Assembly (NCBI GenBank): GCA_039924845.1
Contig: JBDTAC010000013.1
Coordinates: 1 to 53,753 of the forward strand
DNA length: 53,753 bases
Direction of reading: 5' to 3'
Source: Bacteroidia bacterium
GTDB lineage: Bacteria > Bacteroidota > Bacteroidia > DATLTG01
Shown: positions 6,201-13,605 of the stretch, piece by piece
Position numbering within the stretch: position 1 is the stretch's first letter
How the letters are laid out: each line of letters begins with the position of its first letter
The notes under the pieces: generated by a model
The model's input: the letters and a program-made list of their open reading frames with translations, nothing else
Database searches by the model: none
Told to the model about the DNA's origin: nothing
Made by a program: the position numbers and the translations under genes

Positions 6201-8009
6201 TTACGCGACAGCATTAAAATAATCAAAAATTATTTTTGCTTTCGAAATACCAACAAAATCAGCTAATATAGCTTGTGAAGTTTCTTTTATATTTTTTACG
6301 GATTTCAATTCCCGTAATAATTTTTCTGCTGTTTTATCGCTAATTCCTTTAATTTTTGTGAGTTCTGTTTGCACTAAATTTTTCTCTCTTTTATTCCGAT
6401 GATGGGTGATTCCGAAGCGATGCGCTTCATCGCGAATTTGTTGAATGATACGCAATGTTTCCGATTTTTTATCCAAATACAAAGGCAAAGAATCACCGGG
6501 ATAATATATTTCTTCCAATCTTTTTGCGATACTAATAATTCCTACTTTACCCATCAAATCAAGCTTTTCTAAACTTTTCACCGCCGCGCTCAATTGCCCT
6601 TTTCCGCCGTCAATCACAATCAAATGCGGCAATTTCTGCCCTTCTTCTATCAAACGGTTGTAACGCCTGAAAATGATTTCTTCCATCGACGCAAAATCAT
6701 TCGGACCTTCCACAGTTTTTATATTAAAATGACGATAATCTTTTTTACTCGGTTTGGCATTTTTAAAAACCGTCATTGCCGCCACTGGAAAAGCTCCTTG
6801 AATGTTTGAATTATCAAAACATTCGATGTGAAAAGGTAATTCTGTTAAGCGCAAATCTTTTTTCATTTGCTCTAAAATCCTTGTATATCGTGCTTCGGGA
6901 TTCAGCAACTCTTCTTTTCTATTTTTTTCTTGTCGATAATATTTTACATTTCGCTCTGACAAATCAAGTAATTTCTTTTTATCTCCGCGTTGCGGAACAA
7001 AAAACACAGCTTCCGGAATGCCCATTTCCATTGGGAAAGGAACAATAATTTCTTTCGCATCGCTTTCAAAACGTTGACGCAATTCGGTAATCGCAAGCGC
7101 TAATAATTCTTCAGGCGATTCATCCAATTTTTTTTTCAATTCAATCGTATGTCCTTGGATAATCGCACCATTAAACACTTTCAAGAAATTTACATACCCG
7201 GATTTTTCATCCGTCAAAATCGAAAAAACATCCACATTGTTGATATCGGGTGTAACAATAGTTGATTTGCTTTGATATTTTTCGAGTATTTCAATTTTAT
7301 CTTTCAGAATTTGAGCTTTTTCAAATTGAAATTGCTGTGCGTAATCCTGCATCATTTGCTTCAATTGGCGGGTAACAGAATGAATATTTCCGCGAACAAT
7401 ATCTTTAATTTCACGAATGCTTTGATTGTATTCCGATTCTGTTTCCAAACCTTCGCAAGGCCCTTTGCAATTTCCCAAATGAAATTCCAAACACACTTTA
7501 AATTTTTTTTTCTGAATATTTTCTTCTGACAATTGAAGGTTGCAATTACGTATCGTATACAATTGTCGAATGAGGTCAAGCACAGTATTCATCAACTTTA
7601 TAGAGGCATACGGACCAAAATAAGAGGAGCCATCTTTAACCACATTTCGAGTAGAAAAAATTCGAGGAAAAGTTTCGTTTTTAATGCAAATCCAAGGATA
7701 CGTTTTATCGTCTTTTAGCAATACATTGTAACGCGGTTGGTACTTTTTAATGAGATTATTTTCGAGCAACAAAGCATCTAACTCCGTATCAACAACAATG
7801 TATTTAATATCGCAAATTTTACGAACAAGTACTGCCGTTTTTCCGCTCTCATGCTTGTCTTTATTGAAATACGAGGTAACTCTTTTTTTTAAATTTTTGG
7901 CTTTTCCTACGTAAATTATTTTCTCTTCTTTATCAAAATATTGATACACGCCCGGATTATCGGGCAAGGATTTTAAAATTAAATCAAGGTGTTCAGAAAT
8001 ATCCGTCAT
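6201..8009 (-). CDS. uvrC: Excinuclease ABC subunit C
   Basis: UvrC makes the dual incisions flanking bulky DNA lesions in nucleotide excision repair with UvrA and UvrB. This 602-residue protein has the N-terminal GIY-YIG nuclease domain (PGVYQYF at 19-25, IIYVGKAKNLKKR near 31-43), and a central UVR helix pair that binds UvrB (around QFQFEKAQILKDKI). The RNase H-like C-terminal nuclease carries FDNSNIQG and LIVIDGGKGQL. Tandem helix-hairpin-helix motifs end the protein (TKIKGISDKTAEKLL, LADFVGISKAKII). Length is normal. The last helix contains an in-frame copy of the dispersed repeat (6224-6238), reading KAKIIFD. A TAACTTTG box at 8032-8039 (minus strand) may be its -7 promoter element. Confidence 0.97.
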   Translation of the reverse strand: MTDISEHLDLILKSLPDNPGVYQYFDKEEKIIYVGKAKNLKKRVTSYFNKDKHESGKTAVLVRKICDIKYIVVDTELDALLLENNLIKKYQPRYNVLLKDDKTYPWICIKNETFPRIFSTRNVVKDGSSYFGPYASIKLMNTVLDLIRQLYTIRNCNLQLSEENIQKKKFKVCLEFHLGNCKGPCEGLETESEYNQSIREIKDIVRGNIHSVTRQLKQMMQDYAQQFQFEKAQILKDKIEILEKYQSKSTIVTPDINNVDVFSILTDEKSGYVNFLKVFNGAIIQGHTIELKKKLDESPEELLALAITELRQRFESDAKEIIVPFPMEMGIPEAVFFVPQRGDKKKLLDLSERNVKYYRQEKNRKEELLNPEARYTRILEQMKKDLRLTELPFHIECFDNSNIQGAFPVAAMTVFKNAKPSKKDYRHFNIKTVEGPNDFASMEEIIFRRYNRLIEEGQKLPHLIVIDGGKGQLSAAVKSLEKLDLMGKVGIISIAKRLEEIYYPGDSLPLYLDKKSETLRIIQQIRDEAHRFGITHHRNKREKNLVQTELTKIKGISDKTAEKLLRELKSVKNIKETSQAILADFVGISKAKIIFDYFNAVA

Positions 8010-8070: not shown

Positions 8071-8091
8071 TCGAAAAAAATAATTTTCCGA
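8071..8091 (+). repeat. Dispersed AT palindrome copy
   Basis: A copy with core GAAAAAAATAATTTTC lies between uvrC and the upstream sigma-operon gene. It is one of the few copies oriented against the flanking genes. Confidence 0.65.
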
Positions 8092-8100
8092 AACGCTTTT

Positions 8101-8799
8101 TTATTTTCTAGAAAAATCAACGGTATCTGGTAGCGCAGAAGGTTCCATAGCGCTTTTATTTTCAACGCTTTTCGAGAAATCAAAATTGGCATCGTTGCCG
8201 GATTTTGCGATTACGGAAGTAGAATCCGTTTTTAGTTTTTGAGATTGTGATTGATTTTTTGTTGAAGAAAAATTATTTTTTGGAGGATTTGTTTTTGCGG
8301 TTGCTGGAAAATTATTTTTTGAGATTTCTTTTTTTACTAGGATAGGATTTACAGACGTCGAAAAATTATTTTTTTGAAGCACTATTTTTATTGGTAAAAC
8401 AGGTTTTCCTGAAACAGAAATTGGATTCTTTTTTGAGATTTCTTTTTTTATTGGAGGAAGATTTTCGGGTTTCGAAAAATTATTTTTTTCAGGCGCTAAA
8501 CTTGCGGATTCGATTATCATCGCGGAAGATCTTTTTTTTGAAAAATTATTTTTTGGAGTAGTAAAAGCAATGAAATAAAATAAAATGCTTAACACAAAAA
8601 CAGATCCGACTCCGATTGCAATATTTTTTTTCTGAGCAAAAATTATCTTGAAAAAATCAGTATTAAAAAAGGATTTTTTGGTGCTGCGTTTCGGTAAAAT
8701 AGATTCTAATTTTTCCCAACAAATTTCATCGTAAGCCACTTCGTATTTTAGCAAAGTCCTTTTTATAAATGCATCGGAATTTTCGTACGGATTTTTCAT
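8101..8799 (-). CDS. Single-pass membrane protein, putative anti-sigma partner, repeat-built linker
   Basis: This 232-residue protein starts inside the stop codon of the sigma factor gene (ATGA overlap), so the two are translationally coupled. Residues 1-50 are charged and probably cytoplasmic, and a transmembrane helix follows (IAIGVGSVFVLSILFYFIAF, about 59-78). The remainder is a low-complexity, Lys/Ser/Pro-rich, presumably periplasmic tail. The position after an ECF sigma gene and the single-helix topology suggest an anti-sigma or sigma-regulatory role, but no anti-sigma domain was recognised. Five in-frame copies of the dispersed repeat lie between 8267 and 8556, encoding KNNF(S/P) each time. 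Much of the tail therefore seems to have grown by accumulating the element. Confidence 0.75.
   Translation of the reverse strand: MKNPYENSDAFIKRTLLKYEVAYDEICWEKLESILPKRSTKKSFFNTDFFKIIFAQKKNIAIGVGSVFVLSILFYFIAFTTPKNNFSKKRSSAMIIESASLAPEKNNFSKPENLPPIKKEISKKNPISVSGKPVLPIKIVLQKNNFSTSVNPILVKKEISKNNFPATAKTNPPKNNFSSTKNQSQSQKLKTDSTSVIAKSGNDANFDFSKSVENKSAMEPSALPDTVDFSRK
8267..8556 (-). repeat. Five in-frame dispersed AT palindromes in one gene
   Basis: Copies lie at about 8267-8283, 8306-8323, 8359-8379, 8472-8492 and 8539-8556. All are oriented to read AAAAAATAATTTT along the coding strand and give Lys-Asn-Asn-Phe-(Ser/Pro). This is the densest cluster of the element in the window. A degenerate relative encoding KKNPIS lies between the third and fourth copies. 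Confidence 0.85.
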
Positions 8800-9335
8800 A
8801 CAAATGCGTTTAAATTTTTTTGTAAATAAAATTTTGCTTTCGATATATTCGCAATCGCTGTTTCTTCGCTCATATCCAAGTTTTCCATAATATTTTTCAA
8901 AGAAATATCATCAATCACCGCCAAATTGTACAACACCCTGTAAGCTGGTGGCAATTGCTGTAAAGCATGCAATATAGTTTCCGTATCCATTGTTTCCAAT
9001 TTCGCTTCGCTTAATACATCATTGTTTTTTTTAACATCTCCAGCATTTACAGTACTTGCAATCAAATATTCTTTTCGGTTGTTTCGTAAATTTTTGACGG
9101 CTGCCGAAATCATTATTTCTTTCAACCAATTTTCAAAACACATCTCCGAGTTGTACTTTTTCAAGGTTTGAAAAGCAGAAAAAAATCCATCGTTTAAAAT
9201 TTCTTGTGCTTGCGGAATGTCTTTGGAATAGCGCAAACACACGCCCATCATTTTACCAAAATAACGCTCAAATAAGATTTGTTGCGCTTCTTTTTTATGA
9301 TGAATACAATTTCGAATTAGTTCCACTTCATCCAT
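8796..9335 (-). CDS. ECF-type RNA polymerase sigma factor
   Basis: This 179-residue sigma-70-family protein has region 2 in the N-terminal half (FERYFGKMMGVCLRYSKD, then AQEILNDGFFSAFQTLKKY). Region 4 at the C-terminus includes LPPAYRVLYNLAVIDDISL followed by a helix-turn-helix near IMENLDMSEETAIANISKAK. It should direct RNA polymerase to a small regulon, probably envelope-linked. It starts 5 bases after a secreted lamin-tail protein and overlaps the downstream membrane protein by 4 bases. The order is therefore surface protein, sigma factor, membrane regulator in one operon. The inducing signal is unknown. Confidence 0.9.
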   Translation of the reverse strand: MDEVELIRNCIHHKKEAQQILFERYFGKMMGVCLRYSKDIPQAQEILNDGFFSAFQTLKKYNSEMCFENWLKEIMISAAVKNLRNNRKEYLIASTVNAGDVKKNNDVLSEAKLETMDTETILHALQQLPPAYRVLYNLAVIDDISLKNIMENLDMSEETAIANISKAKFYLQKNLNAFV

Positions 9336-12918: not shown

Positions 12919-13605
12919 GTGACAAAAAGAAAATTGCAACGCTTCGCGGAAACAGAAACTTTCGGAAATGTTTTTCACATCGGATACGAAGATTCTCTGC
13001 AAAATTTTTCGTTGAAGGGAAAATGGAATTCGGATTATTTTAAAAACAACCATCCGATTGTTTTGGAGTTGGGCTGCGGAAGAGGGGAATATTCGGTGGG
13101 ATTGGCGGAACGTTTCCCAGAAAAAAATTTTATCGGTGTAGATATTAAAGGCGCTCGGATTTGGCGCGGCGCGAAAACAGCCGCCGAAAATAAAATGAAC
13201 AACGTGGCTTTTTTACGCACGCGAATTGATTTTATTGAATCGTGTTTTGAGGCACAAGAAATTTCTGAAATTTGGATTACCTTTCCAGATCCGCAGCCAC
13301 AGGAAAGTCGCGAGCGGAAAAGACTTACGTCGGATTTATTTTTAAATCGCTACCAAAAAATTTTAAAACCAAAAGGTATTATTCATCTCAAAACAGACAA
13401 TGCTCCGTTTTATGAATACACATTAGAGCAGGCTCAAAAAAATAATTTTTCGATTGTGAATTCTACGCATGATTTGTATGCTGAAAAAAATATTTTTTCA
13501 AAAGAGAAAAAAGAAACCGCTGCATTGACGGAAATTCAAACGTTTTACGAAAAAAAATTTTCAGAGTTAGGATTTAAAATTTGCTATTTAAATTTTCAAA
13601 TATGA
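12919..13605 (+). CDS. trmB: tRNA (guanine-N7)-methyltransferase
   Basis: TrmB methylates N7 of G46 in the variable loop of tRNAs using S-adenosylmethionine. The 228-residue product has motif I VLELGCGRGEYSVGLA (48-63), IGVDIKGARIWRGA (72-85) and ITFPDPQPQ (120-128), followed by RKRLT. This is the Bacteroidota version of the PDP motif. Translation starts at GTG, 11 bases after the SDR stop; no better ATG is present. Two repeat copies are in frame (13435-13452 reading KNNFS, 13482-13500 reading KNIFS) in the C-terminal third. The stop overlaps the next gene's ATG (ATGA). Confidence 0.95.
   Translation: MTKRKLQRFAETETFGNVFHIGYEDSLQNFSLKGKWNSDYFKNNHPIVLELGCGRGEYSVGLAERFPEKNFIGVDIKGARIWRGAKTAAENKMNNVAFLRTRIDFIESCFEAQEISEIWITFPDPQPQESRERKRLTSDLFLNRYQKILKPKGIIHLKTDNAPFYEYTLEQAQKNNFSIVNSTHDLYAEKNIFSKEKKETAALTEIQTFYEKKFSELGFKICYLNFQI
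13435..13500 (+). repeat. Two in-frame dispersed repeats in trmB
   Basis: The copy at 13435-13452 has the AATAATT centre and encodes KNNFS. The copy at 13482-13500 has the symmetric AATATT centre and encodes KNIFS. They lie only 29 bases apart, between otherwise conserved blocks. Confidence 0.75.

Follow-up and report, generated by a model that had tools for sequence, protein, structure and literature searches.

A lineage-private palindromic DNA element, possibly a self-DNA uptake tag, has overwritten part of a disordered protein tail in a Bacteroidia bacterium

The window analyzed here, a stretch of 53,753 nucleotides from a Bacteroidia bacterium (contig JBDTAC010000013.1 of assembly GCA_039924845.1), carries at positions 8101–8799 (minus strand) an open reading frame encoding a protein of 232 amino acids with no Pfam match. 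In this protein, a short N-terminal region is followed by one predicted membrane segment and then by a disordered tail rich in K, S, N and P; the putative periplasmic location of the tail is drawn from that one hydrophobic segment only. Directly upstream lies the gene for the partner of this protein, an ECF sigma factor (8796–9335, minus strand; Pfam Sigma70_r2 and Sigma70_r4_2), whose orthologues in the class show at most 44% identity. In the class, orthologues keep the order of a sigma factor gene followed by a gene for a membrane protein whose long tail is of low complexity, and a PorP/SprF gene is usually next. In the window, the place of the latter is occupied by uvrC (6201–8009), and an FGDMID-type C-terminal motif, present in most of the class orthologues inspected, is missing from the tail protein; the regulator may therefore have changed its role. 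The CHU_C domain, of the T9SS type, was also matched in the Pfam search and, along with the PorP/SprF neighbours in the relatives, points to membership of Bacteroidota.

A preliminary description had reported five in-frame copies of a KNNF(S/P) segment in this tail, and these were confirmed. KNNFS occurs four times and KNNFP once, spanning positions 8269–8553, and on the coding (minus) strand each copy reads as the 12-mer AAAAATAATTTT. Copies 1 (TPKNNFSKK, 8542–8553), 2 (PEKNNFSKPEN, 8476–8487), 3 (LQKNNFSTS, 8362–8373) and 5 (PPKNNFSST, 8269–8280) have an exact core, with 14-mers at 8541–8554, 8475–8488, 8361–8374 and 8268–8281, respectively, while copy 4 (ISKNNFPAT, 8308–8319) has the 12-mer core with the last T of the 14-mer changed to C. 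Flank scores for copies 1 to 5 were 2.0, 11.0, 16.5, −2.2 and −4.9. A sixth copy (8076–8087, plus strand; flank score 12.6) is intergenic, located just downstream of the tail gene and between it and uvrC.

Exact 12-mers numbered 42 in the window, compared to 0.83 expected from dinucleotide shuffles. No other 300 bp in the 888 kb of genome sampled is as dense as the tail with its five copies (the runner-up has three), and approximately 0.016 clusters this dense are expected per genome according to a Poisson estimate from the mean genome density. The five copies are not fully independent, as the tail contains an internal duplication of two units that are 80% identical and 114 bp apart: unit A (8311–8384, minus strand), with copies 3 and 4, and unit B (8425–8498, minus strand), with copy 2. 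Where unit A has copy 4, with AAAAAATAATTTT, unit B has AAAAAAGAATCC, so that the two differ here by in-place substitutions. Both this duplication and low constraint contribute to the record copy density of the tail.

Each of the five KNNFS segments is a copy of a palindromic DNA element found throughout the genome. Since variation is tolerated mainly at two central W positions and at the edges, the motif was defined as the palindrome AAAAAWTAWTTTTT, a 14-mer with 1,617 sites in the 2.66-Mb genome vs. 8 for the reversed control. The exact 15-mer AAAAAATAATTTTTC was found 758 times in the same genome and its reversed controls not at all. Within 888 kb, perfect copies of the 14-mer outnumbered one-offs (513 vs. 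455, the latter distributed over 40 possible variants), and 332 of the one-offs correspond to an edge position or a register shift. In the count made for the strict 15-mer, there were 118 perfect copies vs. 154 one-offs, and 123 of the latter fell at four tolerated positions.

With YR flanks added, the resulting 18-mer has 1,023 sites in the source genome, compared to 0–6 per genome in 394 other genomes of the class. Further, no comparable repeat was seen in four class relatives (100 kb each). A GTDB r220 search for the 22-mer TTCGAAAAAWTAWTTTTTCGAA, which may not cover the records of the source genome itself, gave four scattered single matches only; viral contigs gave none, and an exact-string literature search for the element returned unrelated papers only.

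Around the element core, TTCRAAAAAWTAWTTTTTYGAA, AT-tracts recur on both sides at a phase of approximately 12 bp. In stacked sites, TTCR/YGAA stands beside the core, followed by GC-biased spacers and then by the AT-tracts, the positions of which are A or T with no fixed base. AT peaks were observed at about 17.5, 30.5, 42.5 and 53.5 bp from the element centre, and phasing extends approximately 55 bp to each side. That this phasing is a mere by-product of clustered sites was rejected, as isolated sites (none other within 160 bp) keep the phase; beyond 25 bp from the centre, their phasing was matched by none of 2,000 simulated nulls. Close neighbouring sites are spaced at 23, 36–37, 49 and 62 bp. 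Neighbouring copies are phase-locked genome-wide in steps of approximately 12–13 bp, which is not the helical repeat of 10.5 bp. Away from the sites, AT content in coding DNA has an ordinary period of about 11 bp, unlike the phasing of roughly 12 bp around the element. The palindrome arms do not covary, paired cells being at or below expectation, and below it at the first flank position, which indicates that selection acts on half-sites of the duplex and not on a hairpin.

This architecture is what gives weight to the main rival of the interpretation that we favour, namely a chromosome-organising site. Here, a lineage-specific dimeric nucleoid-associated or architectural protein would bind the palindrome and wrap or bend the phased AT-tracts, so that intergenic sites organise the genome and coding copies are tolerated or useful extras. 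Two-fold symmetry without arm covariation, AT phasing out to 55 bp per side and the regular neighbour spacings are all consistent with such a protein, as is the strong preference for intergenic DNA in all gene orientations. Sites of nucleoid proteins, such as the AT palindromes of Lrp/Fis-like proteins, likewise combine two-fold symmetry with AT-rich phased flanks, but their consensus is usually relaxed, unlike that of the element, and we know of no nucleoid-protein site that matches its sequence. No candidate protein was identified, and it is not evident of what use five copies in a coding tail, or the many in enzyme loops, would be. Near-misses are very few, whereas sites of intracellular regulators are usually relaxed in consensus, following the argument of PMC1626085. 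On balance, we consider a chromosome-organising site unlikely, though to be taken seriously.

The location of the copies was determined in 888 kb (a third of the genome) sampled as stretches, with home-made rough gene calls that assigned 88% as coding. Non-coding DNA held 258 of the 327 18-mers, that is, 2.4 per kb vs. 0.09 in genes, and coding sequence contained roughly one-quarter to one-third of the 14-mers. Every intergenic class carries the element. Divergent spacers are the least dense, and in tandem spacers the sites lie preferentially on the 3′ side of the gene upstream; on both counts, a promoter or operator role was disfavoured. A cluster of PHA synthase, phasin and thiolase genes on its own contig (L028:1–18660) has one copy vs. 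about 11 expected, and may be a recent import that has yet to gain copies. A second tail of the kind described above was observed in a protein of 1,992 amino acids (L011:4685–10663, minus strand), where four more SKNNFS/QKNNFS copies lie in a disordered stretch rich in N, S, T and D.

Those 14-mers that lie deep in genes use all three reading frames (72/36/18), and coding copies have a mean flank score of 1.4, compared to −15.2 at random coding positions and −13.8 at other AT runs; AT-tracts at steps of approximately 12 bp surround these copies as well. At the protein level, KNNF was found 72 times outside the tail gene, in unrelated proteins across the proteome, vs. 3.3 for the mean permutation (approximately 20-fold), and in 68 of these 72 cases it is encoded by AAA AAT AAT TTT. 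Including the tail gene, the same codons account for 73 of 77 cases, compared to a share of about 39% predicted by codon usage (p = 4e-25). Peptides read from the other frames were also inflated relative to permutations (EKIIF, 24 vs. 0.3; KKYFF, 16 vs. 0).

These results bear on the two explanations offered in the preliminary description. The accumulation of a DNA element in a tolerant disordered tail was supported by a genome-wide and mostly intergenic distribution, the use of three frames, fixed codons and the non-coding flank signature of coding copies. The alternative, in which KNNFS is itself selected because the tail uses it for binding or processing, agrees with the single frame used by all five tail copies, but is contradicted by the proteome-wide excess of KNNF with fixed codons in unrelated proteins and by the equal inflation of EKIIF and KKYFF. 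Moreover, KNNFS was absent from all orthologous tails inspected among the class relatives. We therefore regard peptide-level selection as extremely improbable.

The preliminary description had further envisaged that the copies were gained as precise insertions. This was examined by an approach modelled on that used for USS (PMC1626085), in which coding copies were aligned to class relatives. No gaps were found within element-coded residues in any of the 11 alignments of well-conserved proteins with a local identity of at least 50%, which does not support insertion as the route. Alignments of TrmB, Asd and SufS agreed with gap-free replacement, and MutS showed a 2-residue gap relative to its best PDB homologue. 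Identity to homologues was 27% for element-coded residues vs. a gene average of 45% (p = 8e-5). In the TrmB-like gene of the window (12919–13605, plus strand), which has two in-frame copies (QKNNFS and EKNIFS), the first aligns gap-free to homologues; the second is 16 codons away, in a loop of variable length.

Abundance, palindromy, intergenic sites and, in tandem spacers, the preference for the 3′ side of genes would also fit a dispersed mobile element, a hairpin repeat of the REP or MITE-like type, or an RNA terminator. An inserted mobile element was rejected because the flanks are A-or-T mixtures rather than one copied sequence, and the alignments are gap-free; a hairpin, terminator or REP sequence was rejected because the arms lack the covariation that would keep pairing. 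Together with the many copies inside genes, this makes explanations of this class very improbable. In a similar vein, REP/BIME and MITE-like repeats resemble the element in being palindromic, intergenic and present in many copies, but they are copied blocks or hairpins, unlike an element with degenerate flanks and non-covarying arms. Taken together, the intergenic bulk of the copies, the three frames, the fixed codons and the gap-free replacement of residues indicate a DNA-level element made by substitution, and speak against both a selected peptide and an insertion. The element is a lineage-private duplex motif that is kept near-perfect, and it has overwritten part of the disordered tail of the protein encoded at 8101–8799.

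Substitution origin would also be compatible with a biased mutation or repair process, specific to the lineage, that creates and keeps the exact sequence through repair or modification and without any selected use. HIP1 (GCGATCGC) of cyanobacteria offers a parallel, in that it is a palindrome of very high copy number for which a methylation-linked repair model has been proposed (PMC4390886). However, HIP1 is short (8 bp), GC-rich and linked to DNA methyltransferases (PMC4390886), and an AT palindrome of 14–22 bp with tracts phased out to 55 bp would be hard to derive from a repair specificity, which makes this process an improbable origin.

The reading that we favour, with a probability of roughly 0.45, is that the element is a self-DNA uptake tag of the uptake-signal-sequence (USS) kind, spread by molecular drive. 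In this scenario, the competence machinery would include a receptor with two-fold symmetry that recognises the symmetric duplex and favours fragments in which the element is present. Among the conspecific fragments that enter the cell, those with a perfect match would be recombined back into the genome more often, and through this molecular drive perfect copies would accumulate. They would do so mainly where selection does not remove them, namely between genes and in disordered parts of proteins, of which the tail is an example. Within genes, the element arises by substitution of nucleotides at places where the protein can accommodate the residues that it encodes, and in the tail the copy number was additionally raised by the one internal segmental duplication.

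Several lines of evidence lead us to this preference. In the USS of Pasteurellaceae, perfect copies outnumber one-offs, copies originate by mutation, and AT segments lie 12 bp apart (PMC1626085). In line with this, the element shows lineage-specific abundance, an excess of perfect copies, a substitution origin and AT segments at approximately 12 bp. ComEC and DprA are present in the source genome; both are found in most bacteria and are not diagnostic. Against an uptake tag, a type II/IV pilus ATPase (PF00437) was not found in the source genome, so that the uptake machinery would differ from that of Haemophilus and Neisseria. Elsewhere in Bacteroidota, Riemerella columbina shows a preference for its own DNA, for which no tag is known (PMC7965970), and Riemerella anatipestifer transforms with ComEC, DprA, ComF, RecA and proteins unrelated to known competence machinery (PMC8459023).

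The comparison with known tags also reveals where an uptake tag fits less well, the main misfits to USS being palindromy and the strong intergenic bias. To our knowledge, none of the known USS and DUS is palindromic, which counts against an uptake tag, and the long symmetric phased AT pattern also suits an intracellular DNA-wrapping protein. The USS of Haemophilus influenzae and other Pasteurellaceae resemble the element in occurring at about one copy per 1–3 kb with perfect copies exceeding one-offs, and share with it a substitution origin inside genes, an intergenic excess and AT-rich flank segments centred 12 bp apart (PMC1626085, PMC2346458). They have, however, a 9-bp GC-containing core with AT segments on one side only, and 47–70% of them lie in coding sequence in five Pasteurellaceae (PMC2346458). 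In the element, by contrast, AT segments flank an AT palindrome on either side; its copies are intergenic to a greater extent, and it resides in a genome without a pilus ATPase. The DUS of Neisseriaceae are, like the element, dispersed, of high copy number and lineage-specific. With these points in mind, we put forward only tentatively the full combination of a palindromic uptake tag, a pilus-independent uptake system in Bacteroidia, phased AT-tracts replacing a GC-containing core, and disordered tails reshaped by molecular drive.

As far as the literature searched shows, Pasteurellaceae and Neisseriaceae are the only groups with established dispersed uptake tags, and the element, if it is indeed such a tag, would be the first uptake sequence known outside these two families. 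As some Bacteroidota prefer their own DNA, it would also provide a concrete candidate for the sequence of the mark, in a genome without a pilus ATPase. If it were a chromatin site instead, a bacterial chromosome organised by approximately 1,600 near-perfect copies and AT-tracts at a 12-bp phase would be an arrangement not described before. With regard to protein evolution, the tail is a clear case of peptides written into disordered tails by pressure at the DNA level.
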